Position numbers and translations under genes: made by a program. Source: Methylophaga sp. (GTDB lineage Bacteria > Pseudomonadota > Gammaproteobacteria > Nitrosococcales > Methylophagaceae). From it: DNA of 45,940 nt. The notes under the pieces are model-generated. The model was not told the DNA's origin and made no database searches. It worked only from the letters and a program-made list of their open reading frames with translations. Below, one piece after another: positions 2,631 through 21,180 of the stretch (position 1 is its first letter; every line of letters starts with the position of its first letter). The DNA is taken from assembly GCA_024636315.1 (NCBI GenBank), contig JAGXHJ010000075.1:1-45940 (forward strand). Direction: 5' to 3'.

Positions 2631-3242
2631 CTAGAGCATACCTTCCTTAACGATAAACTCAATAATATCAGGTAGGCCTTGGCCAATTTTAAGATTAGTA
2701 AAAACGTAGGGTCTATCAATTCGCATTCTTTTCGTATCACTGTCCATTACATCAAGTGAGGCTCCGACATAAGGTGCTAAATCTATTTTGTTAATCACCA
2801 GTAGATCAGAGCGTGTTATTCCTGGACCGCCTTTCCTTGGGATCTTCTCGCCTTCAGCAACGTCAATCACGTAAATCGTAATGTCAGCTAACTCAGGGCT
2901 AAAGGTGGCTGATAAATTATCCCCACCACTTTCAATAAAGATTAAATCTAAATCAGGGAAGGTATCACTGAGATCTTCAACGGCTGCTAAGTTCATCGAA
3001 GCATCTTCACGAATCGCAGTATGTGGGCAACCGCCAGTTTCTACACCAACAATGCGGTCTGCAGAAAGTGCTTCACTTTTTACCAAAAACTGAGCATCTT
3101 CTTTGGTATAAATATCGTTTGTTACCACCGCTAATTGATAGTCATCACGCATCGCTTTGCACAAGGCATCAAGTAACGCTGTTTTACCTGAGCCTACTGG
3201 CCCACCGACGCCGATGCGTAAGGGTGCTTTTTTTGCATTCAT
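2631..3242 (-). CDS. ureG: Urease accessory GTPase UreG
   Basis: 203 aa, the normal family length. A P-loop ([15 protein letters not shown]) lies near residue 12. Also visible are the switch-region motif [10 protein letters not shown], the CPH nickel-binding motif inside [36 protein letters not shown], and the G4 motif NKID. UreG hydrolyses GTP in the UreDFG complex to deliver nickel into the UreC active site. It is the last gene of the urease operon, 14 bases after ureF, and converges on the broken diguanylate cyclase gene. Identification is secure. Confidence 0.97.
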
Positions 3243-3256
3243 ATTTTTTTCTCTTA

Positions 3257-3931
3257 TCAGGATCTAAATAAACGGGTGTACTGAGTTTCATGACGGGCGC
3301 TAGCATAAGCTAAGGCGGGAGCAGAGCTACCAATATTGTCATCGCTTACGCTTAACCCCCTCTCGACTGCTAATGCTAACGGTTGGGCTAGATCGCGTAA
3401 AATTCGCTGTCCAGCCATTTGCCCTAAGGGGATTAATTTCACCCCAGAGATCACAATGTTTTCTAACCATGACCATGCAAAACCCTGTGCACCTAGATGT
3501 ATCGGTATATTCCACTGGCTCAATGCCAATGCAAAGCCTGCTGTTTGAGATTTTGCCAATAACAGTTTCCATTGTTCAGCAAGATCCATATCTAAATCTT
3601 GTAACAATCTCACCATCGCCCTGCCTCGGTTCTTCTCTTCCAGTCTAAGCTCACTGGTTTCTCGATGAGCGAGTAGGATATCTATCCACCGCGATAAACT
3701 TAATTCATCTTGAGTTTGACAGGCTTGGAGCATTCTCACGAGTAAGGGTATTTCAAGATATTGCAGATTGGTCTCAATCAGATCGGCTAACCAATCATGT
3801 AACTCTTGCTCAGTATTAACCCATTGGCATTCAACCGCCCATTCGAGCCCTTGTGAATAGGTAAATCCACCCACAGGTAAGGCACTGCTTGATAGCTGCA
3901 TCAAGCGTATCAGACTAATATCGGCCATCAT
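3257..3931 (-). CDS. ureF: Urease accessory protein UreF
   Basis: 224 aa, typical for UreF. It is all-helical in character, with the family signatures [20 protein letters not shown] near the N-terminus and a [16 protein letters not shown] tail that in this family contacts UreD/UreG. UreF bridges UreD and UreG and acts as a fidelity checkpoint for nickel insertion. It sits between the 60-aa peptide gene (18 bases upstream) and ureG, in the canonical E-F-G order apart from that insertion. Confidence 0.96.
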
Positions 3932-4150: not shown

Positions 4151-4609
4151 TTAATGATGATGGCCGTGGTCATGGCCACTACTTATATTACTACCGTAAG
4201 CGCCTGCTTCTGGTTCAAAGGGTACATTTTCAACTCGCACGGCCAATCCTAATCCTACCAACATGTCATCTAAGACATGATCATGAAGATATTGGATGCG
4301 CCCAGGATTAATCTGTAGTGCGACATGGCGATTACCGAGATGGTAGCAAGCTCGTGCCATCAACCACGCATCGTCACAGCTCACTGTGGAAACGCTTTCA
4401 TTGGCTGCAATGATTTTGACAATGATGCCATCTTCACTCGCCAATACATCACCATTTTGTAGCACTTGACCTCGTTCTAGAAACAAGCCGACATCACGAC
4501 CATCATCCAAAACTGCACGTAGTCGGCTTTTAACTCGACTCGCCAGTGGTAGCGTCAACGTGGCATTTTCTGCTGTTTTAGTACTTAGTTTTTTTATTAA
4601 GTTAATCAT
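4151..4609 (-). CDS. ureE: Urease accessory nickel metallochaperone UreE
   Basis: 152 aa. The N-terminal peptide-binding domain is followed by the metal-binding domain (LGLAVRVENVPFEPEAGAYG) and a His-rich tail GHDHGHHH that binds nickel. The GNRH segment (YHLGNRH, about residue 90) is the conserved core of the dimer metal site. It starts two bases after the ureC stop. UreE delivers Ni(II) to the UreDFG-apoprotein complex. The His tail is moderate in size compared with enteric forms. Confidence 0.96.
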   Translation of the reverse strand: MINLIKKLSTKTAENATLTLPLASRVKSRLRAVLDDGRDVGLFLERGQVLQNGDVLASEDGIIVKIIAANESVSTVSCDDAWLMARACYHLGNRHVALQINPGRIQYLHDHVLDDMLVGLGLAVRVENVPFEPEAGAYGSNISSGHDHGHHH

Positions 4610-4611
4610 AT

Positions 4612-6318
4612 TTAAAATAGGAAATAGCGTTGTGCCAGTGGTAATTCCACCGCGGGCTCGCAGGTTAATAATTCGCCATCAGCAAACACTTGGTAAGTTT
4701 GCGAATCGACTTCGATATTAGGTTGATAATCATTTAAAATCATATCGGCTTTTTTAATATTTCGGCAATTTTTTACTACGCCGATCATGCTTTTCAAATC
4801 GAGTTTTTCGGCGATGCCATCCTCTTTTGCTGCTTGAGATACAAAGGTCATTCGTGTTGCATGACGTGCGCCACCAAGATTAGCAAACATCATCCGATAA
4901 TGAACGGGTTGTGGTGTTGGGATCGATGCGTTTGGATCGCCCATCGGTGCCGCAACAATCATACCGCCTTTAATAATTAAATTAGGTTTGGTGGCAAAAA
5001 ATGCTGGTGACCATAACACTAAATCGGCTAATTTACCGACCTCAACCGAGCCAACTTCATGTGAAATGCCGTGAGCAATGGCTGGGTTAATGGTGTACTT
5101 AGCAATGTAGCGTCTAGCTCGAAAATTATCAGCATCGGTATCTGCATCACTTGCCAATGGACCACGCTGTACTTTCATTTTATGAGCCGTTTGCCATGTG
5201 CGAATGATTACTTCGCCTACACGTCCCATCGCTTGGGAGTCTGACGCTATCATAGAGAAAGCACCTAAGTCATGCAGAATATCTTCTGCGGCAATTGTTT
5301 CGCGTCTGATGCGTGATTCAGCAAAGGCGACATCTTCGGCAATATTGGGGTCGAGATGATGACAAACCATCAACATATCTAAATGTTCATCGACGGTATT
5401 GATTGTATAAGGACGCGTTGGATTGGTCGATGAAGGCAAAACAAAAGATTCGCCACATGCTTTTATAATATCCGGCGCATGTCCACCGCCGGCACCTTCT
5501 GTATGATAGGTGTGAATTGTTCTACCTTTCATGGCCGCTAAGGTATGTTCAACAAAGCCAGATTCATTAAGTGTGTCAGTATGAATGGCCACCTGAATAT
5601 CCATTTTCTCAGCGACGGATAAACAATTATCTATCGACGCGGGTGTTGTTCCCCAATCTTCATGTAATTTGAGGCCGATCGCCCCAGCACGTACTTGTTC
5701 TTCTAAAGGTTCAGGCAAACTTGCGTTCCCCTTACCTAAAAAACCTATATTCATTGGCAATTCTTCCGCCGCTTGCAACATGCGATGCATATTCCAGATG
5801 CCAGGTGTACACGTTGTGGCATTGGTGCCAGTAGCAGGGCCTGTTCCACCGCCTATCATGGTGGTGACACCGGACATTAATGCTTCTTCGATCTGTTGTG
5901 GGCATATGAAATGAATATGTGAGTCTATGCCACCTGCCGTTAGAATTTGACCTTCACCAGCGATGACTTCTGTACCGGGGCCAACCACAATATCAACACC
6001 TGGTTGCACATCAGGGTTACCTGCTTTGCCAATGGCAACGATACGACCATGTTTGATGCCTACATCAGCCTTGATAATCCCCCAATGATCCATAATTAAA
6101 GCATTGGTGATCAGTACATCGACGACTTCGGCATCACAGCGTTGGCTTTGCCCCATGCCGTCACGAATAACCTTGCCACCGCCAAATTTAACTTCATCGC
6201 CATAAATCGTACGATCGTCTTCGACTTTTATCCACAGTTCTGTATCACCAAGACGGACACGATCGCCAGTCGTTGGCCCATACATCTCCATATAAGCTTG
6301 TCTGCTAATGGTGGTCAT
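4612..6318 (-). CDS. ureC: Urease catalytic subunit alpha UreC
   Basis: 568 aa, full length. The nickel-bridging carbamylated lysine is residue 217 in GLKLHEDWG. Also present are HIHFICPQQ (His ligands), [29 protein letters not shown], and the mobile-flap Cys/His segment [19 protein letters not shown]. It hydrolyses urea to ammonia and carbamate in the cytoplasm. Its ATG overlaps the ureB stop (ATGA), indicating translational coupling. All catalytic residues I can check are intact, so the enzyme should be active if nickel is supplied. Confidence 0.98.
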
Positions 6319-6632
6319 GCTTTATTCTCCAAAACGCCCATTACTTCGGCATTAAAGCCATAAACCTTGCGATCTCCTGCATAAGCAACTAGCTCTACTT
6401 CACGTGTTTGTCCTGGCTCAAAGCGTACTGCGGTACCTGCTGCAATATTAAGTCTGAATCCATAGGTGTTATCGCGCTCAAAGTCCAAGGCGGGGTTGGT
6501 CTCAAAAAAGTGATAATGCGACCCTACTTGAATCGGCCGATCACCTTTATTGGCGACTTCAACTACCACTGTGGCACGCCCTTCATTGAGCGTTATTTCA
6601 CCTTCGGCAACGATTATTTCACCTGGAATCAT
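6315..6632 (-). CDS. ureB: Urease subunit beta UreB
   Basis: 105 aa. The start [19 protein letters not shown] and the conserved [16 protein letters not shown] and [17 protein letters not shown] segments are diagnostic. It is a separate subunit, not fused to UreA, as in most proteobacteria. It lies 24 bases after ureA and overlaps ureC by four bases. Confidence 0.97.
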
Positions 6633-6656: not shown

Positions 6657-6959
6657 TTAAACGATGGGATCATGAACGGTCACTAACTTAGTACCATCAG
6701 GAAAAGTCCCTTCTACTTGTATCTCATGAATCATTTCGGCAATACCCGTCATCACATCATCACGGGTTAATAACGTACGACCATAATCCATTAACTCTGC
6801 AACGCTACGGCCATCACGAGCACCTTCTAAAATAGCCGCACTGATATAGGCTATGGCTTCAGGGTGATTGAGTTTTACGCCACGTAGCTTTCGACGTTCA
6901 GCTAACAAGCCAGCGGTAAATATTAGTAATTTATCTTTTTCTCTTGGGGTCAAATTCAT
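6657..6959 (-). CDS. ureA: Urease subunit gamma UreA
   Basis: 100 aa, exact family length. [14 protein letters not shown], the [20 protein letters not shown] helix and the [18 protein letters not shown] tail are characteristic. It is the first structural subunit gene, 17 bases downstream of ureD. With UreB and UreC it forms the (alpha-beta-gamma)3 holoenzyme. Confidence 0.97.
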
Positions 6960-6976: not shown

Positions 6977-7822
6977 TTATGTGGTCCATATTCTTGGTGG
7001 ACAAGCTTTACGTTCTAAGATGGCGGGTCTTAATACCATCCATATTTGTGCAAATAATCGTCGACACTTAGCGGTGGAGTTTCCCTGATAACGGACAACT
7101 ACACAGTCATCTATTAAGGTGGCGGCAATTAAATGTGTATCTTCATCAGGTAATATAGCTCTTACCCTTTCTAGTAAATCATTATCAGCCGGAGTAGCTA
7201 CTAACATTGCCATCACGGGGTGGCCACGTAAGCCTGTGGGGGCGTTTAATCTAGCTGCATTTACCTGCATGCGTTCCATTAATAAGGGCACACCATCACG
7301 GCTGATCGAAAAATCTAAGCTTAACTGGCCTGTTGTAAACGTTTCATTATTGGCAGGCAAACCCAGACAATGTGTTTCCCAACCAATAAAACGTGCTTTT
7401 GCCGCTAAATTAATGTGCGTACTCATACCGGCTTGGGCGCCAGGGAAATAGATGTTTTCTTGGGGAAGCCACTCTAATGAAGCGTTGTCGGCAATATGTA
7501 AATTCTGCTGTTGGTGAGCTGTTGCGCCTTGGCTACGATAAAACTTGGTCGCGCCAGGCGTGGTTAATAATGTACTCGCATTGGCATGAACGGTCGCGTT
7601 GATAGTTAAGGTATCACCGCCGACAACACCACCTGGCGGATGAAGGATATATAAATGGCAGACATCACCTTCAGGGTAAAAAGCTCTTTGAACTGTTAAT
7701 GGCCCACGTTGACTGCGATGCGACAACACGGTTTTATCACTGCGATAGGAAAACTCCAAGTCGAGTTGTGCTTTCCAGCCTGACGGAAGGACTTGCGCCG
7801 CCAAGCTGTTGCTTGAATTCAT
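6977..7822 (-). CDS. ureD: Urease accessory protein UreD
   Basis: 281 aa. Family marks are HPPGGVVGGDTL, LTTPGATKFYRS (the STQAxxKVYR-like core) and a C-terminal RIWTT. UreD binds apo-urease and forms the nickel tunnel with UreF. The start ATG (7820-7822) overlaps the urtE stop in an ATGA junction, so the urea transporter and urease genes are translationally coupled into one operon. This physical fusion of transport and catalysis is useful evidence that the ABC system carries urea. Confidence 0.95.
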   Translation of the reverse strand: MNSSNSLAAQVLPSGWKAQLDLEFSYRSDKTVLSHRSQRGPLTVQRAFYPEGDVCHLYILHPPGGVVGGDTLTINATVHANASTLLTTPGATKFYRSQGATAHQQQNLHIADNASLEWLPQENIYFPGAQAGMSTHINLAAKARFIGWETHCLGLPANNETFTTGQLSLDFSISRDGVPLLMERMQVNAARLNAPTGLRGHPVMAMLVATPADNDLLERVRAILPDEDTHLIAATLIDDCVVVRYQGNSTAKCRRLFAQIWMVLRPAILERKACPPRIWTT

Positions 7823-8517
7823 ACCGTTAAATACTCACTCACTAAGTCATTACTTAATTCTAAAATATCGCCTTTAGCGACCGCATGGCCACGATCCATA
7901 ATGATAAATTGATCGGCTACTTTTCGTGTTATAGGTAATTTTTGTTCTACAAGTAGCACGGTTAAGCCAATTTCTTTATTTAATCGATTAATGATGTCAC
8001 CAATTTCTTGCACAATATTAGGTTGAATACCTTCTGTTGGCTCATCGAGAATTAACATAGTGGGATCTAAAACTAATGCCCGACCAATTGCCAGCTGCTG
8101 CTGCTGCCCACCTGACAAATCACCACCACGTCGTCCCGACATTTCTTTTAATACTGGAAACATATCATAAATAGACTCTGGAATGGTTCGTACTTTATCA
8201 CGGCGTGACGTTAAGCCAATTTTCAAGTTTTCTTCAACGGTCAGTAATGGAAAAATTTGACGCCCTTGGGGCACATAACCGATACCCAAACCCGCTCGCT
8301 TTTCAGCAGACAATTTAGATAAGTCTTGACCGTCAAATATCATGCTACCTGATTGTGTTGGCAAAATCCCCATCACACTTTGTACTAAGGTTGTTTTACC
8401 GACGCCATTGCGGCCCATTAAACAGGTACATTTGCCTTTCGGTATGTCTAAGTCTAAATCCCATAAGGTATGACTTTTACCATAAAATTGGTTTAATTTT
8501 TCAATTTTTAACATCAT
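7819..8517 (-). CDS. urtE: Urea ABC transporter ATPase UrtE
   Basis: 232 aa. Walker A GRNGVGKTTLV, signature LSGGQQQQLAIGRAL, Walker B LILDEPTEGIQP and the H-loop-equivalent region VEQKL place it in the LivF-like branch of branched-chain-amino-acid-type ABC transporters. Context (urtABCDE followed directly by ure genes) assigns urea. ATG overlaps the urtD TAA. With UrtD it powers UrtBC. Confidence 0.95.
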   Translation of the reverse strand: MMLKIEKLNQFYGKSHTLWDLDLDIPKGKCTCLMGRNGVGKTTLVQSVMGILPTQSGSMIFDGQDLSKLSAEKRAGLGIGYVPQGRQIFPLLTVEENLKIGLTSRRDKVRTIPESIYDMFPVLKEMSGRRGGDLSGGQQQQLAIGRALVLDPTMLILDEPTEGIQPNIVQEIGDIINRLNKEIGLTVLLVEQKLPITRKVADQFIIMDRGHAVAKGDILELSNDLVSEYLTV

Positions 8518-9347
8518 TAACTACCTAAATAGACTTCAACAACACGAGGATCATTCTGCACTTCATCCATCGTCCCTTCAGAAAGTACGGAACCTTGATG
8601 TAATACTGTCACCGTACGAGCAATCGAACGAACAAAATCCATATCATGTTCAACCACTACCACAGAATGTTCGCCTGCTAGGGAGGTGAGTAGTTCACCT
8701 GTTTTTTCCATTTCTTGATGCGTCATCCCTGCTACGGGTTCATCGACTAATAATAAACGTGGACGTTGTATTAATAACATGCCAATTTCTAACCATTGTT
8801 TTTGTCCATGCGATAATGAACCCGCTCGTAACATCACATTTTCTTGCAAACCGATTTTAACAAGCACTTGTTCAATATTGTCTCGTTGCTCACCAGTTAA
8901 TTTGGCAAATAACGTCGCCCAAACACCTTTGTCACACTTCATGGAGAGTTCAAGGTTTTCAAACACGGTGTGGTTTTCAAATACGGTCGGCTTCTGGAAT
9001 TTTCGTCCAATACCAGCGTTGGATATTTCTGGCTCAGTCATTCTAAGTAAGTTCATGGTTTGACCAAAATAGACGGTACCAGTGTCGGCTCTTGTTCTAC
9101 CGGTAATTATATCCATCATCGTTGTTTTACCCGCACCATTAGGGCCGATAATACAACGTAATTCGCCATCATTGATATATAAATTCAAGTTATTGATAGC
9201 CTTAAAACCATCAAAGCTAACGCTAACATCATCCAAATATAAAATAATATCTTTACTGACATTTAGATTGGGATTGATATCTGGTTTTAATGACTCAAAT
9301 ACCTCATCACGACGCATAGCGCTACGCACGGTATCTAGTGTACTCAT
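8517..9347 (-). CDS. urtD: Urea ABC transporter ATPase UrtD
   Basis: 276 aa, LivG-like. It has Walker A GPNGAGKTTMMDI, a signature SHGQKQWLEIGMLL (a variant of LSGGQ, as usual in UrtD), Walker B LLLVDEPVAGM, and H-loop VVVEHDMDFVR. The N-terminal extension of about 40 residues before the core is longer than in LivG and is normal for UrtD. ATG overlaps the urtC stop by four bases. Confidence 0.95.
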   Translation of the reverse strand: MSTLDTVRSAMRRDEVFESLKPDINPNLNVSKDIILYLDDVSVSFDGFKAINNLNLYINDGELRCIIGPNGAGKTTMMDIITGRTRADTGTVYFGQTMNLLRMTEPEISNAGIGRKFQKPTVFENHTVFENLELSMKCDKGVWATLFAKLTGEQRDNIEQVLVKIGLQENVMLRAGSLSHGQKQWLEIGMLLIQRPRLLLVDEPVAGMTHQEMEKTGELLTSLAGEHSVVVVEHDMDFVRSIARTVTVLHQGSVLSEGTMDEVQNDPRVVEVYLGS

Positions 9348-10453
9348 GCTTGAGCCGCCTCATTTTTTTTAAACAGTCCTGCTACGCCCCGAGGTAAAAA
9401 CATAGTTGCAAAGATAAATAGGCCACCTAATGCATATAGCCAAATTTCAGGAAATGCACCTGTAAAATAGGTTTTGGAAAAGTTGACAAGAATGGCTCCT
9501 ATAACTGCACCATAGAGTGTTGAACGTCCACCAATGGCAACCCAAATAACCATTTCGATAGATAATAATGGAGAAAACTCACCAGGATTAATAATCGCCA
9601 CTTGCGGAACATACAAGGCACCCGCGATACCCGCAAGAATTGCTGAAAAAGTGAAGATCCATAACTTAACATTTTCTACGCGATAGCCAATGAAACGTAG
9701 GCGATCTTCTGAATCTCGAACAGCAATGGCAACACGTCCTAACTTTGATTGCACGATCGCTCGACACGATAAATAGCCAAATGCCAAGGCGACTGCTGAA
9801 GCAATGAATAAACCGACTCTGGTCGCATCACTTTGAAGTGAAAAACCGAGAATATCTTTAAAGTCCGTTAGACCATTATTGCCACCAAAACCCAACTCAT
9901 TTCTAAAAAACGCCAACATTAAGGCATAGGTCAAGGCTTGAGTCATAATAGATAAATATACCCCAGTCACACGAGAACGAAATGCTAACCAACCAAACAC
10001 GAAGGCCAATAAACCAGGTATTAATACCACCATTACGGCTGCAAACCAGAACTGATCAAAGCCCTGCCAGAACCAAGGTAGCTCAGACCAGTTAAGGAAA
10101 ACCATAAAATCGGGTAATTCAGGATTACCATATACGCCTCGATCGCCAATTTGACGCATTAGATACATGCCCATCGCATAACCACCCAAAGCGAAGAAGG
10201 CGCCATGTCCTAAGCTAAGGATGCCTAAAATACCCCACACTAAATCTACCGCTATCGCCAATAAGGCATAGGTAAGATATTTACCCAATAAAGTAACGGT
10301 ATAGGTGCTTAAATGAAAAGTACTGCCCTCCGGTACTAGCAAGTTTGATAAAGGCACGAGAATGCTTACCACTAATAAGATAGTAAGGAATACTTGGCCC
10401 CCACGGTCATCTTTGAGTATTTTCTTTAAAAACATATTATTTAGTCCCATCAT
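9344..10453 (-). CDS. urtC: Urea ABC transporter permease UrtC
   Basis: 369 aa with about nine or ten hydrophobic helices. The segments SLGHGAFFALGGYAMGMYLMR, AIRDSEDRLRFIGYRVENVK-like (AVRDSEDRLRFIGYRVEN) and WVAIGGRSTLYGAVIGAILVN are UrtC/LivM family marks. It is the inner-membrane half of the UrtBC channel. Translation may start at either of two adjacent ATGs (10453 or 10450). A third, Met-7 (10435), is also possible. The gene lies 25 bases after urtB. Confidence 0.93.
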   Translation of the reverse strand: MMGLNNMFLKKILKDDRGGQVFLTILLVVSILVPLSNLLVPEGSTFHLSTYTVTLLGKYLTYALLAIAVDLVWGILGILSLGHGAFFALGGYAMGMYLMRQIGDRGVYGNPELPDFMVFLNWSELPWFWQGFDQFWFAAVMVVLIPGLLAFVFGWLAFRSRVTGVYLSIMTQALTYALMLAFFRNELGFGGNNGLTDFKDILGFSLQSDATRVGLFIASAVALAFGYLSCRAIVQSKLGRVAIAVRDSEDRLRFIGYRVENVKLWIFTFSAILAGIAGALYVPQVAIINPGEFSPLLSIEMVIWVAIGGRSTLYGAVIGAILVNFSKTYFTGAFPEIWLYALGGLFIFATMFLPRGVAGLFKKNEAAQA

Positions 10454-10478: not shown

Positions 10479-12089
10479 CTAGGTTGCAGCTCGACCTTTT
10501 TGTGGAAATAGCCCATTAGGTCGTTTCTGAATAAATAAAATGATGAATATCAGTACCAATATTTTAGCTAACACAGCCCCTGCCCAAGGCTCGAGTAATT
10601 TATTGGTAATGCCCAAACTTAATCCAGCCACTAAGGTTCCCCACAAATTACCTACACCACCAAATACAACCACCATAAATGAGTCGATAATATAAGCTTG
10701 GCCAAGATTTGGACCTACATTGGTGAGTTGGCTAAGTGCCACGCCGGCTACACCCGCAATACCTGAGCCTAGACCAAAAGTCATCGCATCAACCCAATTA
10801 GCTTTAACCCCCATTGATCTCGCCATAGCACGATTTTGGGAAACGGCTCTTACCTTCAGCCCAAGCGTTGTTTTCTTCAATATAAACAATAGTATGGAAA
10901 AAACGATTAAAGCGAAAGCAATGATATAGAGGCGATTTAAGGTCAACGCTAATGCGTCATTAATCTGCCATACCCCGCTCATCCATGACGGTGTTTCTAC
11001 GGCACGATTCAATGGACTGAATATTGTGCGGACAAGCTGTTGCAAGACTAAGCTGACACCAAATGTGGCTAATAAAGTCTCAAGTGGTCTGCCATACAAG
11101 AAGCGAATAATGCCACGTTCTATTAAGATGCCAACCGATCCAGAAACGATAAATGCGAGAGGGATAGCAATCAAAACAGAGTATTCGATTAAGTTTGGCA
11201 ACCAAAGTTGAACAACATAGGTGGTATATGCACCCAGCATAATCAATTCGCCATGGGCCATATTGATAACGCCCATTACACCAAAGGTTATCGCCAATCC
11301 AATTGCCGCGAGTACCAATACCGAACCAAGACTTAAACCAAAAAATAATGTTTCAATTTTGGCATATCGACTAACTCGTTGATCTATCTTCGCTAATGTT
11401 TTTGTCGCTAGTTGTTTGATTTCTGGATCTTTTGCATTTTCGATGACTTCTGCAAGTACTTGACGGACACTGGGGTTAACACTGTCCTTCACTTTTGCTA
11501 TTAAACTAAGGGTATCGCCTTCATTCTTCTTAAGCAGTAAGGTTGAAATAGCAATATTCAATTGTGCTTTGACTTCATCGTCCTGTTCTAATTCAAAGCG
11601 CTTTTGTAAAAAAGCTAATTGTCCAACATCTATTTGACTTAATACTTGAGCAACAGCTGTTTTTCTTACGTCTGCATCTTCATCATTGAGTTCAATCATT
11701 GCCAGCGAATCACGTAATGTAGTGCGCAGGCTATTGCTGATAATAACTTTTTTCCATTCTGATGACTTAATCACCTCCAGCTTTTCGCCCGTTAATACCG
11801 CGACGGCATATTCTTTACTATTCTTCTCTGATAAGACGGCGATTAATTTATCTGATTTGCGATAGTGGAGTTGACTATTAAGTAAGGCATTTATCACCAT
11901 TGCCAAACGTTTGTCTTTGCTTTGAGCAAGCTTATCTATAGCCTGAGTTCGTGTTTTAAAATTAGACGATGTTAAACCTGAAAGCGTAGCGACAAAATCA
12001 GATGGCGTCTCATCATTGGCAAAGGATGAAGAATTAAAAGGCAGTATTACCATCAGCATTACTACGAACAATCTAGTTATGTATGTCAT
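10479..12089 (-). CDS. urtB: Urea ABC transporter permease UrtB (long form with periplasmic N-domain)
   Basis: 536 aa. A signal peptide (about residues 1-25) and a periplasmic helical repeat domain of about 220 residues precede the LivH-like membrane part, which begins near FGLSLGSVLVLAAIGLAIT and contains MGVINMAHGELIMLGAYTTY and FGGVGNLWGTLVAG. The long N-domain is typical of proteobacterial UrtB and absent from LivH. The 160 bases upstream contain two hairpins (see separate entries), so its expression is probably uncoupled from and lower than that of urtA. Confidence 0.93.
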   Translation of the reverse strand: MTYITRLFVVMLMVILPFNSSSFANDETPSDFVATLSGLTSSNFKTRTQAIDKLAQSKDKRLAMVINALLNSQLHYRKSDKLIAVLSEKNSKEYAVAVLTGEKLEVIKSSEWKKVIISNSLRTTLRDSLAMIELNDEDADVRKTAVAQVLSQIDVGQLAFLQKRFELEQDDEVKAQLNIAISTLLLKKNEGDTLSLIAKVKDSVNPSVRQVLAEVIENAKDPEIKQLATKTLAKIDQRVSRYAKIETLFFGLSLGSVLVLAAIGLAITFGVMGVINMAHGELIMLGAYTTYVVQLWLPNLIEYSVLIAIPLAFIVSGSVGILIERGIIRFLYGRPLETLLATFGVSLVLQQLVRTIFSPLNRAVETPSWMSGVWQINDALALTLNRLYIIAFALIVFSILLFILKKTTLGLKVRAVSQNRAMARSMGVKANWVDAMTFGLGSGIAGVAGVALSQLTNVGPNLGQAYIIDSFMVVVFGGVGNLWGTLVAGLSLGITNKLLEPWAGAVLAKILVLIFIILFIQKRPNGLFPQKGRAAT

Positions 12090-12249: not shown

Positions 12250-13536
12250 TTAGAAGTTCTGACCTGAACATTTCGCTGTTTTCACATTGTAGCTACCGCA
12301 AGACAATGGCGCACGCCAGTCAGAAATAATGTCTTTAGAGCCTTCTAAATAGTCAGACCATGCATCACCCGCTACTAAGCCAGATGTTTCCCAAACAGTA
12401 CCAAACTGACCATCATCTTGAATTTCACCAATAATGACAGGTTTAGTAATGTGATGATTTGGCATCATCGCCGCGTAACCACCCGTTAGATTTGGAACTG
12501 AAATACCAATGATGGCATCTTGTACCGCAGTAGGATCCGTTGTACCTGCTTTTTCTACCGCTTTAACCCACATATTGAAACCAATATACGTTGCTTCCAT
12601 CGGATCATTCGTTACACGTTTGTCATCTTTAGTGAATTTGTGCCATTCAGTAATGAACTTAGAGTTAGCATCTGCATCAATGCTCATGAAGTAGTTCCAT
12701 GCCGCTAAGTGACCCACTAACGGTTTAGTGTCCATACCAGATAGTTCTTCTTCACCCACTGAGAATGCAATAACTGGAATATCTTCAGCAGAAATACCTT
12801 GGTTACCTAGTTCTTTGTAGAAAGGCACGTTAGCATCACCATTGATCGTCGAAACGACGGCTGTTTTTTTGCCTTTAGAACCAAATTTTTTGATATCAGA
12901 TACAATTGATTGCCAGTCAGAATGACCAAATGGTGTGTAGTTGATCATGATATCTTCAGCGGCAACCCCTTTAGATTTCAAATACGCTTCAAGAATTTTG
13001 TTCGTTGTACGTGGGTAAACATAGTCCGTCCCCGCTAATACCCAACGCTTAACACCACTATTATTCATCAAATAATCAACTGCCGGTATAGCTTGTTGGT
13101 TTGGCGCAGCACCGGTGTAGAACACATTTTTCGATGATTCTTCACCTTCATACTGAACTGGGTAGAAAAGGATGCTGTTTGATTCTTCGAACACTGGCAA
13201 TACAGATTTACGTGAAACAGACGTCCAACAACCGAAAACCGCTGCCACTTTTTCTTTATCTACTAATTCTTTCGCTTTTTCAGCAAATAAAGGCCAGTTA
13301 GAGGCAGGGTCAACAACAACAGGTTCTAATTTTTTACCTAAGAGGCCACCTTTTTTATTTTGTTCCTCAATCAACATCAACACCGTATCTTTCAATGTTG
13401 TTTCACTGATCGCCATAGTGCCTGATAATGAATGTAAGACACCGACTTTGATTGTGTCATCAGCGGCATAGGCGCTGCTTGCCATTAATACGCCAACTGA
13501 AACTAATGATGTTAGTAATTTACGTTTGAGACTCAT
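12250..13536 (-). CDS. urtA: Urea ABC transporter substrate-binding protein UrtA
   Basis: 428 aa. A signal peptide (cut near AYA|ADDTIKVG) precedes a type I periplasmic binding protein fold: VGVLHSLSGTMAISETTLKD, VAAVFGCWTSVSRKSVLPVFE, LFYPVQYEGEESSKN, NYFMSIDADANSKFI and the tail LSCGSYNVKTAKCSGQNF. These match UrtA (TIGR03407-type) rather than amino-acid-binding LivK or amide-binding FmdD/AmiC. It captures urea in the periplasm for UrtBCDE. It lies 38 bases downstream of the porin gene with no room for a strong promoter, so the two are probably co-transcribed. Confidence 0.95.
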   Translation of the reverse strand: MSLKRKLLTSLVSVGVLMASSAYAADDTIKVGVLHSLSGTMAISETTLKDTVLMLIEEQNKKGGLLGKKLEPVVVDPASNWPLFAEKAKELVDKEKVAAVFGCWTSVSRKSVLPVFEESNSILFYPVQYEGEESSKNVFYTGAAPNQQAIPAVDYLMNNSGVKRWVLAGTDYVYPRTTNKILEAYLKSKGVAAEDIMINYTPFGHSDWQSIVSDIKKFGSKGKKTAVVSTINGDANVPFYKELGNQGISAEDIPVIAFSVGEEELSGMDTKPLVGHLAAWNYFMSIDADANSKFITEWHKFTKDDKRVTNDPMEATYIGFNMWVKAVEKAGTTDPTAVQDAIIGISVPNLTGGYAAMMPNHHITKPVIIGEIQDDGQFGTVWETSGLVAGDAWSDYLEGSKDIISDWRAPLSCGSYNVKTAKCSGQNF

Positions 13537-13574: not shown

Positions 13575-14735
13575 TTAATATTGGAATTGGTAACCGATAA
13601 CAAAAGCATCAGTCTCCGTACCACCATCAGTGTCAGAATTTGTATAAGCGACCATCACTCTTGAATTAACACCATCAATAAGATAGTTAAAGCCTACGTC
13701 GATTGTTTCAGTGTCAGCGCCACCTTCTGGACTTACTTCTGAATAGGCAAAGTAAGGTTGAATTTTGCCAATACCCATTTTTCTAGGCATTAGATATAAG
13801 GCTGTTGCTTTCCAAGAATCACCTTCAAACAAACCAAAAGAGTTTGTTTTGCCATCTAGGTCGAAATCTTTATATGCAGCTTCAACAGTGATGACACCTT
13901 TATTCTCTAGAACAGTTTCATAAAGGACATCGGCATATAAACCAGTAAAGTCACCTAAATCACCGACTGTACCTGCTGCATCTTCTTCCATTTGCGCTGC
14001 TACAGATACTGTTAATACATCACCTGCGCCACCGTAATATGTACTGCTCGTATAATATCCGGGATTACTTTCAACATTTAAGAAGTTGTAGCTGAAGCGG
14101 CCAGAATATAAAAAGTTATCATCTGGATCAGCATCTGTACCACCTGTACTTTCATAACCTTCGAAAACACCTACAGCATAAGTGAAGCGTTTTTCTTCGC
14201 CTAAAGCACCCCATACCGTCACACCTTCATCACGACCGTATAAACCGGCATTACCAGCACCATGATCTTCACCCCAATCGGCTGGACCAAATGGTGTTTT
14301 AGCCCAATTCCAGATATTCGCATAATATGGACCACTCATTTCCTCGCGATCTGCTGGTACCAACATACGTCCAACCCAAACATTAAATTCAGGGCTAATT
14401 GTAAACTTACCTATAGCATCTAAAATGCCATACTCCGTATCAAATGGGGCGTTTGAACTACTCCAAAAAGCTTCAGTATTAAATTCAAAGCCAACATTTT
14501 TTGTGATTTGACCATTGACGTAGATACGAGCACTATCTAGATTAAAATCATTAGACCAGTCGTCACCACTAGGTGATGCATCTTCAACTGCTGCAAAGCT
14601 TGTTCTTGCACCGATGCCAACACTTATCCATTTGCCGTTGTCACCCTCAATCTTTGCACCCGCCATCGCTGATGTAGCGACCATAAGGGTGCTTGCCACA
14701 GCGACCAAGCCAGTTAGTTTTTTCAATTTACTCAT
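13575..14735 (-). CDS. Outer-membrane porin of the urea operon
   Basis: 386 aa with a signal peptide (cut near AMA|GAKIEGDN) and a beta-barrel pattern ending in the outer-membrane signature VIGYQFQY with a terminal aromatic. It resembles porins encoded beside amide/urea ABC transporters, such as FmdC of Methylophilus, where an outer-membrane protein is induced with short-chain amide and urea uptake. Its place directly before urtA suggests it widens outer-membrane entry of urea when urea is scarce. Substrate preference is inferred from context only. It is headed by its own 267-base regulatory gap carrying a tandem TACGTA site. Confidence 0.85.
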   Translation of the reverse strand: MSKLKKLTGLVAVASTLMVATSAMAGAKIEGDNGKWISVGIGARTSFAAVEDASPSGDDWSNDFNLDSARIYVNGQITKNVGFEFNTEAFWSSSNAPFDTEYGILDAIGKFTISPEFNVWVGRMLVPADREEMSGPYYANIWNWAKTPFGPADWGEDHGAGNAGLYGRDEGVTVWGALGEEKRFTYAVGVFEGYESTGGTDADPDDNFLYSGRFSYNFLNVESNPGYYTSSTYYGGAGDVLTVSVAAQMEEDAAGTVGDLGDFTGLYADVLYETVLENKGVITVEAAYKDFDLDGKTNSFGLFEGDSWKATALYLMPRKMGIGKIQPYFAYSEVSPEGGADTETIDVGFNYLIDGVNSRVMVAYTNSDTDGGTETDAFVIGYQFQY

Positions 14736-14789: not shown

Positions 14790-14834
14790 ATACTAATGAG
14801 GGAGGGGTAATTTCTATATACGTAAACCTACGTA
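14790..14834 (-). promoter_or_regulatory. Candidate promoter and tandem TACGTA operator for porin-urt operon
   Basis: Two TACGTA hexamers (14819-14824 and 14829-14834), each a palindrome, are spaced exactly 10 bases apart, one helical turn. On the minus strand a -10-like TAGTAT (+ 14790-14795) follows about 25 bases downstream, placing the pair near -45 where an activator would replace a -35 box. The rest of the 14736-15002 gap shows no gene. The natural candidate to bind is the LuxR-type regulator encoded immediately upstream. Its binding here is inference. Confidence 0.55.
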
Positions 14835-15002: not shown

Positions 15003-15926
15003 TCAAGAAGAAACGGGTGAACCACGAAGCTTATTAACGGCCATTGCAGCTGCTGCTGTCCGACTTTCGGCACCCAATTTAATTAATACGTGCTCCATGT
15101 GCTTACTGACTGTTCTTGGGCTTGTACCTAATATTTCACCAATCAATTTATCGGTTTTACCTAATGTCGCCCAGTGAAGCACTTCTGCTTCACGATTGGT
15201 CAGCTTGAATATCGCTTTCAAAGCCTGAATTTGATTCGATTCTGACTCTTCACGTAGTAAAAAAAGCCATTGTTCATCACTATCGATATCGTTAGCTGTG
15301 AAAACAAGACGGCCATGACTGTTCTCGTGTTTAAACGGTGTAGATTTCGCTTTATTGTTTGAAAGTTGCTGAACCCATGGTGATAAAACAGAAAGATCAT
15401 ACTCACCAGTGAGGTCATTTTTGGCAAAATAATTATGGATCAGCTGCTTTGATAAAGGTGATTGCCAAATAATTTTTGTTGTACCTGGTAAAAAAGCAAT
15501 CGCCGCCTGACCAAAGGCATCGAGAGCACTTTGTGTTTGGCTCATCCTTCGAGCAGTACCCAAGTGGGTTTCCAATCGAGCAATGACTTCAGTTGGATTC
15601 AAAGGTTTAGTGACATAATCAATACCTCCGGCAGAGAACCCAGCGACAACATGCTCAGACTCAGTCAGACCTGTCATAAAAATAACGGGGATATGACGAG
15701 TATTTAGATCTTGTTTAAGTCGTTTACAAACCTCGAAACCATCCATTCCCGGCATAACACCATCAAGTAAAACAATGTCTGGGGCCAATTCATGACAGAT
15801 TTTTATGGCGGAAGCACCATTGGTCGCGACTAAAACAGTATAACCAGACTCATCTAGACTATCGTGCAACAATGCGAGTGTATCTGGCGTATCATCAACG
15901 ACTAAAACAAGTGCACTTTCCTTCAT
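15003..15926 (-). CDS. LuxR-family response regulator (REC-PAS-like-HTH)
   Basis: 307 aa from ATG 15926, which overlaps the end of the kinase gene region (its stop is at 15928-15930) and has a GGAG ribosome site. A longer start at 15953 is possible but would overlap the kinase gene by 26 bases. The receiver domain has VVDDT, phospho-acceptor Asp55 in LLDGVMPG, Thr in FMTG and Lys in VTKPLNP. A middle segment (about 135-235) looks PAS-like. The C-terminal HTH is LTNREAEVLHWATLGKTD followed by GTSPRTVSKHMEHVLIKLG. It is the obvious partner of the adjacent hybrid kinase and the likely activator of the downstream porin/urea operon. Confidence 0.9.
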   Translation of the reverse strand: MKESALVLVVDDTPDTLALLHDSLDESGYTVLVATNGASAIKICHELAPDIVLLDGVMPGMDGFEVCKRLKQDLNTRHIPVIFMTGLTESEHVVAGFSAGGIDYVTKPLNPTEVIARLETHLGTARRMSQTQSALDAFGQAAIAFLPGTTKIIWQSPLSKQLIHNYFAKNDLTGEYDLSVLSPWVQQLSNNKAKSTPFKHENSHGRLVFTANDIDSDEQWLFLLREESESNQIQALKAIFKLTNREAEVLHWATLGKTDKLIGEILGTSPRTVSKHMEHVLIKLGAESRTAAAAMAVNKLRGSPVSS

Positions 15927-15927
15927 A

Positions 15928-18900
15928 TCACTTGTTCTCCAAGGCGGTTTCAATAAACTGTTTCAATGCATCTAAATCGAAGGATTGAGTCATATCTTTC
16001 ATGTTATGAATAAATTCAGGATTAGCCTGCTCTTGTTGCTCAATCTCATTAAGTAGATTTTTAACTCCAGCCATATAACCAAGATCAATGAAGTTCAGAA
16101 GTGATTCTAATTGTTCCGTGGGTGGAAATTGATATACCGGTTCCTGAACAATAACTTTCTCATTACTTTTCTGTGAGTAGATCCACTCTAAAGGTAACTG
16201 CGTACCAATCCAATTGATCAAATCAATTAAATTAACAGGCTTCACTATAAAGTCATCAGCCGTCATGTGCGATGTATTTTCTAAATTTCTATCGAATGCA
16301 TTGGCAGATATGATTGCAATATTAACCTCTGAATGATGAATATTCCGAATAATATTAATCGTTTCCCAACCATCCATTTGAGGCATAGCAAGATCCATAA
16401 AAATAATATCAGGGTTAAACGATTGGTAGACTTGTAAACAAGCGATTCCAGATTCAGCTGCTTTGACTTCAAATCCTAATGGCTTGAGTACATTAATCAA
16501 TAGTTCTCTATCAAGAGGCTCATTGTCGACGACGAGTATCTTATAACGTGGACCTTTATAAGCTATTGGCATTTGATGAACAGGCAATGGTGGGAAGTCA
16601 CCATCAACTCGAATACTAGGTAGGAACAGACGTAGATTAAAACATGTCCCCTTTCCCAGTTCGCTGCGAATTTTCATATCCCCGCCCATCAGTTCAGTTA
16701 ACAATTTACTGATTGTTAAACCCAGACCAGTACCACCGGTACCCTGAACAGAGCTTCCTCTGACAAACGGTTCAAAAATTGTTTCCAGCTCCTCATCGCT
16801 GATACCTGGTCCAGTATCTCTAACTTCCGCCAGCAATAGCGTATGCGCATAGCTAAAGTGAATATACACACTGCCTTTTACCGTATATTTGACCGCATTA
16901 CCTAATATATTAATCAAGATCTGCGTTAGTCTTTTTTGATCTGCTTTTACAACTGCAGGCAAGTTTGAATCGATGATGTATTTGAAATCCAGACCTTTAT
17001 TTCTAGCTTGAATTTCAAACATGCTAATAATTTGCTGTAGAAATTCTGGTAGTCGTAAAGGCTTGATATCAAACTGTAACTTGCCACTTTCTATTCTAGC
17101 GATATCCAAAGTGCCATCGATTAATGACAATAGGTGATCACCACTACGCAGAATAACTTCCGTCGCATAACGATTTGATGAAATAATTTTTTCATCATTA
17201 TTTAATAGTTGCGCATAGCCAAGAATACTATTTAAAGGTGTTCTTAACTCATGGCTAATTCCGGTTATATAACGGCTTTTAGCATCATTGGCCAGTTCAG
17301 CAGCCATTTTGGCCTTCTGTAACTCGACATCAGTTTGCATATGTAATGTGATTTCGCGTTGCAATAATTGATTCTGATTATTCGACTCTTGTTGTGCCAC
17401 TTTTCTGCTTTGCGACGTTAATACCAACCACCAAACAATCACCGTACCCACTAAAATAAGTGCATAAAAAACCTTTAGAAAACCATCTTGGATCAGGGGT
17501 AAAACCATGTCTGAAAATTCTGTCACCGTCAACGATACGTTAATGTAAATCAAGCCAAGAATCGAAGCGAGTACAACGATAGTTAAGAACATAAGTAGTA
17601 AATAATGACCAACACCGCTATGTATATTATCAGACCATGAGCGAGGAAGTAGTGAAATGACAATCCGCTGCCACTGAGAGCCTAATGTAGCATCAGGTTT
17701 GCAGGCATCATGGCACCTTACATCTAAGCAACAACACAGTGAGCAAATGGGTCCCTGATATGCTGGACAGTGTGCGACATCATCAATTTCATACTCGCGA
17801 TCACAGACACAGCACGTTGCATGAGTTTGCTTGGCTTTAAATTGATAGGGCGTACGCGCTAAATAATATTTTCCTTTAGTTATCCAGGCAATCAATGGGC
17901 TCATTACAAAAGCCGTTATCATGGCAATAAAAGATGAAAATGACTGAGCCTCCTTACCAAACACACCTAAAAAGGCGGCAACTGATATTAGGGATGCGAG
18001 TCCCATTGCACCCACACCAACAGGATTGATGTCATATAAATAAGCGCGTCTGAACTCAATACCCTTGGGACTTAAACCTAAAGGTTTATTAATAACAAGA
18101 TCGGCGACTACTGCTGCAATCCAGGAGATAGCGATATTGGAGTAAAGGCCAAGCACTTGCTCAAGCGCTTGAAACACGTCAAGCAACATCAGTAATGTTG
18201 CGATAAATACATTAAATACCAACCATACAACCCGACCAGGATGGCTGTGTGTGAGTCGTGCAAAAAAGTTTGACCACGCCAAGGAACCAGCATAAGCATT
18301 CGTTATATTAATTTTTACCTGACAAAGGACGACAAAAAACACCGTGACCGCTAAAATGACATTTACATTTGAGAATACATAACCAAATGCCACGTAATAC
18401 ATATTGGTGGGGTTTTCAGCTTCAGTAAATGACATGCCTGCTCTAATGGCTAAATACGCTAATAACGCACCAATAAATAACTTCAGCATACCGATAATTA
18501 TCCAGCCTGGACCAGCAGCAAGGACGCCGAGATTCCATGCTAGTTTATTTTCACTATTTTTTTGTGGCATAAACCGCAGATAATCTACCTGCTCACCAAT
18601 CTGTGGCACTAACGCTAAAGCGACAGCAATCGCACTTCCAAACATATAAATATTAAAAGTACTCGCATTATCCGTTGATCCAGAAAAAGACCAAAGTTCA
18701 CTGAGAATCGTGGGTTCTTTTAACAGAATAAAGCTGACCGATCCAAACATAAGTAATAACCAGATTGGCTGGGTAAACATTTGAATAGCACTAATTAAGG
18801 TAACGCCATGAGTCACTAACGGTATAACGACAATCGCACATATTAGATAACTAACATAGAGCGGTATATCGAAATATAAGGTCAGAGCATAGGCCATTAT

Positions 18901-19341
18901 TGCCGCCTCTAGGGCAAACAAGATGAAGGTGAAGGTAGCATAAACAAAGGACGAAATCGTGGAGCCTATATAACCAAACCCGGCTCCTCGAGTAAGTAAG
19001 TCCATGTCTAGGCCATACTTAGCAGCATAAAAACTAATTGGCATACTAATTAAAAAGATAATGATGCTGACGGCTAAAATTGCCCAAAAGGCATTATAAA
19101 AGCCATAGTTGACCGCAAGTGTACCGCCAATAGCTTCCTGTACTAAAAATGCAATAGCACCTAATGCGGTATTAGAAACACGAAATATTGACCATTTTCT
19201 AAATGAATGGGGTGTAAAGCGTAATGCATAATCTTCTAGCGTCTCGTTACCTACCCAAGTGTTGTAGTCACGACGACTTTTAATGATACGCATTGGCGCA
19301 TTGTGTTCAGGAGGATCTAGCAATGCATCATTCGTATTCAA
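15928..19341 (-). CDS. NCS1-type permease fused to hybrid histidine kinase (putative transceptor)
   Basis: 1137 aa. Residues about 30-500 are a full NCS1 (cytosine/allantoin/hydantoin permease-like) domain: TPHSFRKWSIFRVSNTALGA, GAGFGYIGSTISSF, about 12 helices. Residues about 507-547 form a Cys-rich patch with ten Cys and several His (CCVCDREYE, HCPAYQGPICSLCCC, RCHDACKP), a plausible metal site. Then come two more helices (about 570-650), a HisKA domain with His697 in GISHELRTPLN, an ATPase domain with N-box NILGNAVKYT and DTGPGIS, GTGLGL, and a receiver with Asp983 in FMDLAMPQMDGW. A C-terminal Hpt-like helical tail is possible but unproven. The start is TTG (19341) with AAGG 7 bases upstream; the next in-frame Met is residue 17. 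It probably senses a nitrogen compound at the inner membrane and controls the adjacent regulator. Whether it also transports is unknown. Confidence 0.9.
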   Translation of the reverse strand: MNTNDALLDPPEHNAPMRIIKSRRDYNTWVGNETLEDYALRFTPHSFRKWSIFRVSNTALGAIAFLVQEAIGGTLAVNYGFYNAFWAILAVSIIIFLISMPISFYAAKYGLDMDLLTRGAGFGYIGSTISSFVYATFTFILFALEAAIMAYALTLYFDIPLYVSYLICAIVVIPLVTHGVTLISAIQMFTQPIWLLLMFGSVSFILLKEPTILSELWSFSGSTDNASTFNIYMFGSAIAVALALVPQIGEQVDYLRFMPQKNSENKLAWNLGVLAAGPGWIIIGMLKLFIGALLAYLAIRAGMSFTEAENPTNMYYVAFGYVFSNVNVILAVTVFFVVLCQVKINITNAYAGSLAWSNFFARLTHSHPGRVVWLVFNVFIATLLMLLDVFQALEQVLGLYSNIAISWIAAVVADLVINKPLGLSPKGIEFRRAYLYDINPVGVGAMGLASLISVAAFLGVFGKEAQSFSSFIAMITAFVMSPLIAWITKGKYYLARTPYQFKAKQTHATCCVCDREYEIDDVAHCPAYQGPICSLCCCLDVRCHDACKPDATLGSQWQRIVISLLPRSWSDNIHSGVGHYLLLMFLTIVVLASILGLIYINVSLTVTEFSDMVLPLIQDGFLKVFYALILVGTVIVWWLVLTSQSRKVAQQESNNQNQLLQREITLHMQTDVELQKAKMAAELANDAKSRYITGISHELRTPLNSILGYAQLLNNDEKIISSNRYATEVILRSGDHLLSLIDGTLDIARIESGKLQFDIKPLRLPEFLQQIISMFEIQARNKGLDFKYIIDSNLPAVVKADQKRLTQILINILGNAVKYTVKGSVYIHFSYAHTLLLAEVRDTGPGISDEELETIFEPFVRGSSVQGTGGTGLGLTISKLLTELMGGDMKIRSELGKGTCFNLRLFLPSIRVDGDFPPLPVHQMPIAYKGPRYKILVVDNEPLDRELLINVLKPLGFEVKAAESGIACLQVYQSFNPDIIFMDLAMPQMDGWETINIIRNIHHSEVNIAIISANAFDRNLENTSHMTADDFIVKPVNLIDLINWIGTQLPLEWIYSQKSNEKVIVQEPVYQFPPTEQLESLLNFIDLGYMAGVKNLLNEIEQQEQANPEFIHNMKDMTQSFDLDALKQFIETALENK

Positions 19342-19690: not shown

Positions 19691-19792
19691 ATGCCTCAAA
19701 AATTACGTATTAGTGCTTCTGGTGCTGAAGTTTCACCTGAAGGTGTGAAGCGTTTATTAGCGTTACATCAAGTGGTGATATCAAATGAATAA
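19691..19792 (+). CDS. 33-aa leader-like ORF upstream of apbE
   Basis: ATG 19691 follows AGGGTTACAGG and reads 33 residues (MPQKLRISASGAEVSPEG...), ending at TAA 19790-19792. Its end overlaps the apbE ATG (19785) by eight bases, a strong coupling geometry. It has no signal peptide or helix I recognise. It could be a coupling peptide, or the 5' remnant of a longer gene lost by deletion, which would fit the decay seen further downstream. Low certainty that a product matters. Confidence 0.4.
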   Translation: MPQKLRISASGAEVSPEGVKRLLALHQVVISNE

Positions 19793-20612
19793 ATTAAAAC
19801 GTATGCAGCCATTATTGGGTACGTTTGTAGAAGTAGGCGTCATCACGGAAATGGATAACGGTGGTGATGCCATTACTGCTGCATTTAAAGGTATTGCAAA
19901 GGTTCAGGATTTATTGAGCTTACATAATGCCGACAGCGATATATCCCGACTTAATAAGTCAGGACACCATGGTATTGAATTACATCCAATGACTGCGGAT
20001 GTGCTTCGCATCGCTTTGCATATGACCGGTGTTACTGACGGCGACTTTAACTGTACTATTGGTGGAGCACTAATTGAAAAAGGTATGCTACCGGATCATG
20101 GCGGAATACGCCCTGTTAGCATTGGTACGGTGGACGATGTCATCCTAAATGGTTGTCACGCTAGATTATTACGCCCTATTCGTATCACGCTGGATGGCAT
20201 TGCCAAAGGTTATGCGGTTGATCATGCTGTGAATATTCTACAACAACAGGGTATTCATTCTGGGTGGATTAATGCTGGTGGTGATTTACGCGTTTTTGGT
20301 GATATGACCATTCCTGTCTATCGACGGGAAATGGATGAGTCACACACTTTTCTTGGAACGTTTGCCAATACTGCGATTTCAATATCAAGTGCTCAGTTTG
20401 ATTATGACAGTCGTTTTCCCAGCATGATTCTGAATAGTCACACTCATGCTTACAAAGCCGGTATCTGGACAGTTAAAGCCGGATTATCTTGGTTAGCAGA
20501 TGCTTTAACCAAGGTAGCTGGTGTTGCTACTGACAATACCGTCAATAACAAAATAGCGTTACTGGGTGGCGAGTTGCTGGTGGGCTCTTATCGTTATAAC
20601 GGCCTATCCTAA
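19785..20612 (+). CDS. apbE: FAD:protein FMN transferase (ApbE family)
   Basis: 275 aa. N-terminal MQPLLGTFVEVGV, then LHNADSDISRLN, LDGIAKGYAVDHAVNIL and GWINAGGDLRVFG are the flavin-transferase signatures. SWLADALTKVAGVA holds the C-terminal metal-binding Asp/Thr. It transfers FMN from FAD onto a Thr of target flavoproteins. It lacks the lipoprotein signal common in this family and is shorter than the usual 300-350 aa, so it may act in the cytoplasm or the start may differ. It is Fur-controlled (site at 19605-19639) and followed by a broken membrane cytochrome gene, an arrangement typical of iron-responsive flavinylation/electron-transfer loci. Confidence 0.88.
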   Translation: MNKLKRMQPLLGTFVEVGVITEMDNGGDAITAAFKGIAKVQDLLSLHNADSDISRLNKSGHHGIELHPMTADVLRIALHMTGVTDGDFNCTIGGALIEKGMLPDHGGIRPVSIGTVDDVILNGCHARLLRPIRITLDGIAKGYAVDHAVNILQQQGIHSGWINAGGDLRVFGDMTIPVYRREMDESHTFLGTFANTAISISSAQFDYDSRFPSMILNSHTHAYKAGIWTVKAGLSWLADALTKVAGVATDNTVNNKIALLGGELLVGSYRYNGLS

Positions 20613-21047: not shown

Positions 21048-21112
21048 TATTGAAAAGTCGAATACTATGCTTTCTTAAGGATAAATAGCCTATTTCTTAT
21101 GATGTTATTTTT

Positions 21113-21140
21113 ATGTAAACACATGTAAACATATGTAAAC
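21113..21140 (+). repeat. Three 10-bp-phased ATGTAAAC repeats
   Basis: ATGTAAAC occurs at 21113-21120, 21123-21130 and 21133-21140, each starting exactly 10 bases after the last, with two variable bases between. They lie 41-68 bases upstream of the GGDEF-EAL gene start. One-turn phasing suggests a regulator site on one DNA face. No matching factor is evident. Confidence 0.6.
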
Positions 21141-21180
21141 TATAAGCAGATTTCTGAGATGAGTATTCCTAACCGACTCC

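Follow-up and report, generated by a model that had tools for sequence, protein, structure and literature searches.

A divergent NCS1-type permease fused to a hybrid histidine kinase is a candidate urea and amide sensor at a Methylophaga urea locus

In the transceptor kinases CbrA and CrbS, a secondary transporter of the SLC5 type is fused, with a STAC domain in the linker, to a (hybrid) histidine kinase whose ligand is histidine or acetate. CrbS acts through a LuxR-type regulator and an inverted repeat (PMC5715377; PMC13022988), with ACTU sites such as TACTACCATCGTCGAAT (PMC5715377). A sensor kinase of Kuenenia is fused to an Amt domain and senses ammonium (PMC5764959). Here we describe a 45,940-nt stretch of Methylophaga sp. 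DNA (the window; contig JAGXHJ010000075.1 of GCA_024636315.1, positions 1 to 45,940 of the forward strand) in which a 1137-aa hybrid kinase, hereafter the sensor (15928..19341, minus strand, TTG start), heads the urea uptake and urease genes and is followed by a REC-LuxR response regulator. The sensor shares with CbrA and CrbS the fusion of a secondary transporter to a hybrid kinase, with CrbS the LuxR-type partner and an inverted repeat, and with the Kuenenia kinase a transporter domain for a nitrogen compound, although the domain there is an ammonium transporter and the ligand ammonium. It differs from CbrA and CrbS in carrying an NCS1-type permease in place of SLC5, a Cys-rich domain and two helices where they have STAC, and a ligand that would be urea or an amide; its candidate operator, TACGT-N6-ACGTA, also differs from the ACTU sites of CrbS. 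Pfam gave no SLC5 symporter match in the N-terminal part and detected no STAC domain in the linker, with no STAC profile compared. The window kinase would work like the CbrA and CrbS transceptors without belonging to them. We found no description of an NCS1-kinase fusion, or of this kinase-regulator pair, in the open-access literature as judged by titles and the beginnings of abstracts.

We think it likely that the sensor is a transceptor kinase for urea or a short-chain amide whose partner activates a porin and an uptake operon through TACGT-N6-ACGTA. The NCS1 domain would bind urea or a short-chain amide, for example formamide, in the periplasm, and its ligand state would be passed through the Cys domain and the two extra helices to the attached hybrid kinase. 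Judging by the domains, phosphate would then move from His697 to the REC-LuxR partner, either by way of Asp983 or directly. The partner would bind the 16-bp inverted repeat, a site recognised by sequence, and turn on the porin of the outer membrane together with the uptake operon, which here is porin-urtABCDE-ureDABCEFG. Relatives may use this pair for fmd genes (formamidase plus an amide/urea ABC transporter), for urt-amiF, for urease alone or for a stand-alone sister permease.

An earlier note, made from the letters of the window, had described this protein and the gene order behind it, and both descriptions hold. Pfam places HisKA at aa 687-753 (17083..17283), HATPase_c at aa 801-907 (16621..16941) and a Response_reg receiver at aa 935-1043 (16213..16539), and in A2, an alignment of 42 homologues, both His697 and Asp983 reach at least 90% conservation. 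The regulator ORF (15003..15953, 316 aa) overlaps the kinase ORF by 26 nt and carries REC at aa 16-127 and GerE at aa 251-305 (Pfam), so that the two together have the make-up of a hybrid kinase with a LuxR-type partner. The same minus strand continues with an FmdC-like outer-membrane porin (13575..14735; 36% identity to the porin before fmdA in locus L134, score against the ExtI family below cut-off), urtA (12250..13536; TIGR03407 above cut-off), urtB (10479..12089), urtC (9344..10453), urtD (8517..9347) and urtE (7819..8517). There follow ureD (6977..7822; PF01774), ureA (6657..6959; PF00547), ureB (6315..6632; PF00699), ureC (4612..6318), ureE (4151..4609), ureF (3257..3931) and ureG (2631..3242; CobW/HypB/UreG domain, PF02492, named by gene position).

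The sensor keeps this company elsewhere. Our homologue set, the best 80 of at least 586 relatives from a collection scan, is biased to near relatives because the best were taken; those with an organism in their title we take to be beta- or gamma-proteobacteria. A REC-LuxR gene directly follows the kinase in 75 of the 80 loci and lies further off in two, and none was matched in the other three, which end soon after the kinase. Genes of urt, fmd-like or ure type occur within about 10 kb in 63 of the 80 loci, and in 43 of the 53 with full flanks; in this tabulation, which the earlier note had proposed, homologues with the NCS1-Cys-HisKA architecture do not lie mostly beside unrelated operons. In an even sample of 274 genomes drawn from the class, the sensor (E<=1e-60) is present in 15. 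UrtA (E<=1e-60) occurs in 12 of these 15 versus 60 of the 259 others (Fisher 1e-5), UreC (E<=1e-100) in 13 versus 57 (Fisher 5e-7) and full-length FmdA (E<=1e-70) in 5 versus 10 (Fisher 5e-4), with each of the five FmdA genes no more than 9 kb from the sensor. UrtA/FmdD, a porin, UreC or FmdA lies within 10 kb of the sensor in ten of the 15 genomes (G000, G049, G105, G109, G127, G164, G195, G227, G305 and G319). Among 16 annotated plasmid loci, chosen from annotated and diverse matches rather than at random and with incomplete gene tables, 14 have urea/amide genes beside the sensor, as urt with FmdA, urt with AmiF, ure, ure with urt, urt alone, or formamidase with a stand-alone permease.

Several side observations concern the spread of the family. 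Klebsiella plasmid records with a match number 342, and in one K. oxytoca locus (L177, CP026716) amiF-urtEDCBA runs divergently from the kinase-regulator pair with the palindrome in between. One homologue (L010, G026:C77) has PAS domains between its NCS1-Cys half and HisKA, indicating that the kinase part has been exchanged within the family. The second ureC of its genome, in G112:C37, has a PF02133 permease at a distance of about 6 kb, another possible link between NCS1 and urea.

In a review passage on the fmdCABDEF cluster of Methylophilus methylotrophus, the one regulator named inside the cluster is 'a putative positive regulator', and a sensor pair is not mentioned. Five Methylophaga-type loci (L134, L136, L137, L138 and L139, of which L138 is the contig of L012) have the gene order of that cluster after their sensor pair. 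There, kinase, regulator, a small opposite-strand gene, the porin (FmdC), FmdA and FmdB follow in order, and then come UrtA-E-like ABC genes (FmdD, E, F and two ATPases) and ureD onwards; L136 has one additional gene beside the small opposite-strand gene, between regulator and porin. FmdA and FmdB of L012 match PF03069 and PF09723. Of the related loci, L135 has ureG before the kinase and other genes after the pair, and L133 ends within the kinase. The window's own genome (88% complete) gave no FmdA match, and the pair there heads true urt genes.

Permeases related to the sensor's N-terminal domain also occur without a kinase. In G319 one such stand-alone permease, which has the eight Cys and shares 53-55% identity with sensor N-domains, sits between the divergent sensor and fmdA-fmdB-amidase, and in Methylovirgula the order is fmdB-formamidase, kinase-regulator-permease and aliphatic amidase. 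An Acinetobacter johnsonii gene annotated 'allantoin permease' (L171:5663-7270), whose Cys tail has only CxxC...CSLC, heads a plasmid urease operon; being a stand-alone relative of the sensor's permease domain, it probably carries the wrong name. A permease 87% identical to it is divergent from the sensor pair in the unannotated locus L172, where neither urt nor ure genes were recognised up to 7 kb from the pair, and in Arthrobacter a stand-alone form that lacks the Cys pattern stands before an aliphatic amidase. The stand-alone permeases thus neighbour formamidase, amidase or urease genes, which makes urea and short-chain amides the likely signal and one or both of them the likely substrate of the permease domain. 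Searched against a phylum-wide draw, a stand-alone permease query matched 49 of 349 genomes, some weakly, and all matches with E below 1e-130 fell in open frames of at least 894 aa, which is kinase-sized. In a tree, five stand-alone rows form one clade (bootstrap 100) within sensor diversity, next to the two sensors of genome G194. Nested among the receptors as it is, the clade may descend from a receptor that reverted to transport; the root is unreliable because the NCS1 outgroup branches have length 10, and the tree therefore does not establish the direction of change between receptor and transporter.

The permease domain is too divergent for routine detection. Pfam gave no match at E<=10, hence no PF02133, on the N-terminal 537 aa of the kinase and no PF02133 match in the window's own genome, and neither phmmer with the kinase nor the A5 profile found NCS1 among PDB sequences. 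In contrast, hhalign of the sensor N-terminal part against seven PF02133-matching stretches from other genomes aligned 354 columns at 98.3% and E 1.8e-14. A fold search with the full-length model listed only kinases and signalling proteins among 50 rows, so the N-terminal part was folded alone (residues 1-562; pLDDT 84.2, pTM 0.86). The top five of the 130 PDB matches of this model at E<=0.001 were CodB and Mhp1 chains: two CodB chains (7qoa) at TM 0.78-0.79 and three Mhp1 entries (2jln and 4d1a among them) at 0.67-0.72 when normalised on target length, and 0.56-0.60 on query length. The best match outside NCS1, a sialic-acid symporter, ranked sixth. By homology and modelled fold, the N-terminal half of the kinase is a divergent NCS1 homologue beyond Pfam's reach (aa about 44-496, 17854..19212, borders approximate), an assignment that holds at this distance because profile-profile comparison and fold search succeed. 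The 'complete NCS1 transporter domain' of the earlier note is thus borne out by hhalign and the fold search but is not visible to Pfam or phmmer. With Mhp1 and CodB the domain shares its fold and a collinear profile match through NCS1 members; it differs from them in falling below the Pfam threshold, in residues of the sodium site, and in its Cys tail and kinase.

That sodium site bears on a reading in which the sensor responds to nitrogen or ammonium status, or to ABC-transporter traffic, rather than binding urea or amides, the NCS1 domain being a degenerate scaffold. In a remote alignment leading from the sensors through NCS1 members to Mhp1 and CodB, Lys343-Ile344-Asn345 of the sensor face Ser312-Thr313-Asn314 of Mhp1. 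Ser312 and Thr313 form the Na+-site pair of TM8, and by this remote alignment the sensor has Lys343-Ile344 in its place, with Lys343 invariant in A2. Loss of the site would suit a scaffold, and the fmd cluster is ammonia-repressed according to the review, which would suit a response to nitrogen status. However, the same Lys is retained in the stand-alone permeases (QIKINVTN), which presumably transport because no kinase is attached, and across the aligned rows the domain still shares 50-80% identity with that of the window. We regard the scaffold reading as improbable, and on the remote alignment a sodium-independent mechanism of the permease family is likely. It seems to us an even question whether these proteins make up an NCS1-type family of urea/short-chain-amide permeases without the sodium site, existing both as stand-alone transporters and as kinase-fused receptors.

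The link from the sensor to uptake genes runs through a candidate operator. The inverted repeat TACGTCA-NN-TGACGTA was found among 66 intergenic regions, having been first spotted by eye and then tested. The window's 2.36-Mb genome has a single copy of TACGTN6ACGTA, TACGTAAACCTACGTA at 14819..14834 (no strand assigned), 83 bp before the porin start, versus three copies of a control pattern. The 110 loci analysed (2.10 Mb) contain 27 sites, and 25 of these lie within 600 bp upstream of target starts (sensor, porin, urtA/fmdD, fmdA or stand-alone permease), stretches that make up 7.0% of the bases. Outside the discovery set, 12 of 14 sites are at target positions. The first miss, L119:19774, precedes by about 126 bp an fmdA placed at G227:C16:65900; the second, L047:15549-15564, is a perfect TACGTCATCTGACGTA site 1.9 kb before urtA that does not front any recognised gene. 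In L176 a site precedes urtA by 103 bp, and a variant, TACGCAATTTRACGTA, occurs in four of five fmd porin promoters of Methylophaga-family relatives. Eleven plasmid loci were fetched after the motif had been fixed: five have the exact site, in each case in the urtA-kinase gap (five of the eight loci with such a gap), and no further site occurs in their 193,661 bases. In the window between 14600 and 15200, sigma-70-like promoters are at chance level (1 against 1.3 expected), and a search for terminators gave none. Another candidate, AAGACAAGCAGCTTGTCTT, which was the first promoter motif, was rejected as the coding start of ureA.

Genome-wide counts speak to whether the palindrome belongs to another urea/amide regulator, the kinase pair being a passenger in the cluster. 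Twenty-two sensor genomes hold 25 sites, ten of them before target genes (several of these are also among the locus sites). Among 20 genomes chosen by hand that have UrtA or FmdA and lack the sensor, none of 11 sites is on a contig with UrtA, UreC or FmdA. The stricter TACGTYANNTRACGTA has eight sites in the 274 genomes of the even sample, six in 4 of the 15 sensor genomes versus two in 2 of the 259 others. In G253, whose sensor lies on contig C88, sites nevertheless precede the porin-urt operon by 109 bp (C52) and ureD by 227 bp (C99). A third G253 copy, on C2, belongs to a duplicated segment, with 173- and 201-bp blocks around the ureD-promoter site at 91-95% identity (L181, L180). A passenger pair would fit the 34 of 34 ureA-kinase gaps that lack the site; set against the genome-wide pattern, we find this explanation slightly less probable even than the scaffold reading. 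TACGTN6ACGTA is instead, by sequence, probably an operator of urea/amide uptake genes, and the earlier note's idea of a transceptor-like pair tied to uptake gains from its position before the porin-urt operon and from the regulator so regularly following the kinase.

A number of observations weigh against a sensor of urea or amides acting through this operator. Seventeen of the 80 homologue loci have no urea/amide gene nearby, although UrtA scores above the curated cut-off in 13 of the 17 genomes concerned; neighbours of 16 of the 17, read by eye, showed a common context only among close relatives (for example the three Zoogloea loci). Such genes are likewise missing near the sensor in five of the 15 sampled sensor genomes (G089, G185, G194, G253 and G296), where the G185 contig ends 10 bp past the regulator and G194, with two sensors, matched neither UrtA nor UreC. 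The G194 sensors are L116 (G194:C3) and L117 (G194:C11), one of them near genes for a RuBisCO large subunit and a CbbQ-type protein. The Tistrella and A. lipoferum plasmid loci also lack adjoining urea/amide genes. As for the operator, 13 of the 27 sites lay within the 66 discovery regions, and the window's own site, although it matches TACGTN6ACGTA, falls outside the stricter TACGTYANNTRACGTA. The exact site occurs in none of 34 ureA-kinase gaps, and the ureA-kinase branch must therefore differ. It is also missing from 20 of the other 32 discovery regions (regions without it include L170, L173, L176, L109, L111, L113 and all five fmd porin promoters), and three plasmid loci (L186, L187 and L191) have a urtA-kinase gap without it. 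G049, G105, G127 and G164, sensor genomes with adjacent urea genes, have the exact site nowhere. Among seven Methylophaga-family relatives searched, only G034 has a site by these genes, before the kinase; the sites of G001, G005, G013 and G024 lie elsewhere, and G006 and G020 have none.

The nature of the signal has shifted from what the earlier note proposed, namely urea or a urea-yielding compound such as allantoin or hydantoin. Its urea part agrees with the 63 loci beside urea/amide genes, and the neighbours extend the range to formamide and short-chain amides. A purine-breakdown compound (allantoin, hydantoin or a nucleobase) could be sensed instead, its release of urea being the reason for switching on the urea genes. 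In favour, the substrates of structurally solved NCS1 permeases are, by their PDB molecule names, cytosine or hydantoins, and one of the 16 annotated loci, that of A. lipoferum, has xanthine-dehydrogenase-family genes and no urea genes. However, no allantoin or hydantoin gene is among the products in the incomplete gene tables of those 16 loci, where formamidase and aliphatic amidase genes recur, and the sister permeases stand at urease, formamidase and amidase genes. We consider sensing of a purine-breakdown compound unlikely, and urea or a short-chain amide remains our preferred ligand.

Between permease and kinase lies the Cys tail (aa 510-547, 17701..17814), with the pattern CxxC-x11-C-x7-CxxCC-x5-C-x3-C. 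The earlier note had this patch and two extra helices right: the patch reads as ten Cys, eight of them in columns invariant in A2, and the model has helices at 576-605 and 610-715. A loose eight-Cys pattern is present in 81 of 81 homologues. Pfam found a single weak match in the linker, Voltage_CLC at E 0.023, and otherwise none; compared with profiles, the tail matched zinc-finger-type proteins alone, not significantly (best E 2.4). That the patch makes the sensor a nickel or redox gate, as also suggested there, would accord with eight conserved Cys but is very unlikely, given that the same tail ends stand-alone permeases without a kinase, shrinks to four Cys in the Acinetobacter permease and is lost as a pattern in the Arthrobacter form, that G227 has the sensor yet no ureC at E<=1e-100, and that the profile matches, though not significant, are zinc-finger-type. 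The tail is more likely a zinc-binding domain of the permease family, a structural zinc site, than a gate of the kinase.

On the other side of the sensor, the plus strand carries a divergent ApbE-family gene and a gene for a 1231-aa CHASE-PAS-GGDEF-EAL protein (19785-24876). The exact palindrome does not occur between the kinase and these genes.

For the sensing of external urea or amides that induces urt, fmd and urease genes, our analysis names a widespread candidate sensor, its partner and a candidate DNA site, and with these the formamide/urea induction reported for the Methylophilus fmd cluster becomes testable. It also suggests the existence of a bacterial secondary urea/amide permease that is now annotated as 'allantoin permease' or 'hypothetical protein'.

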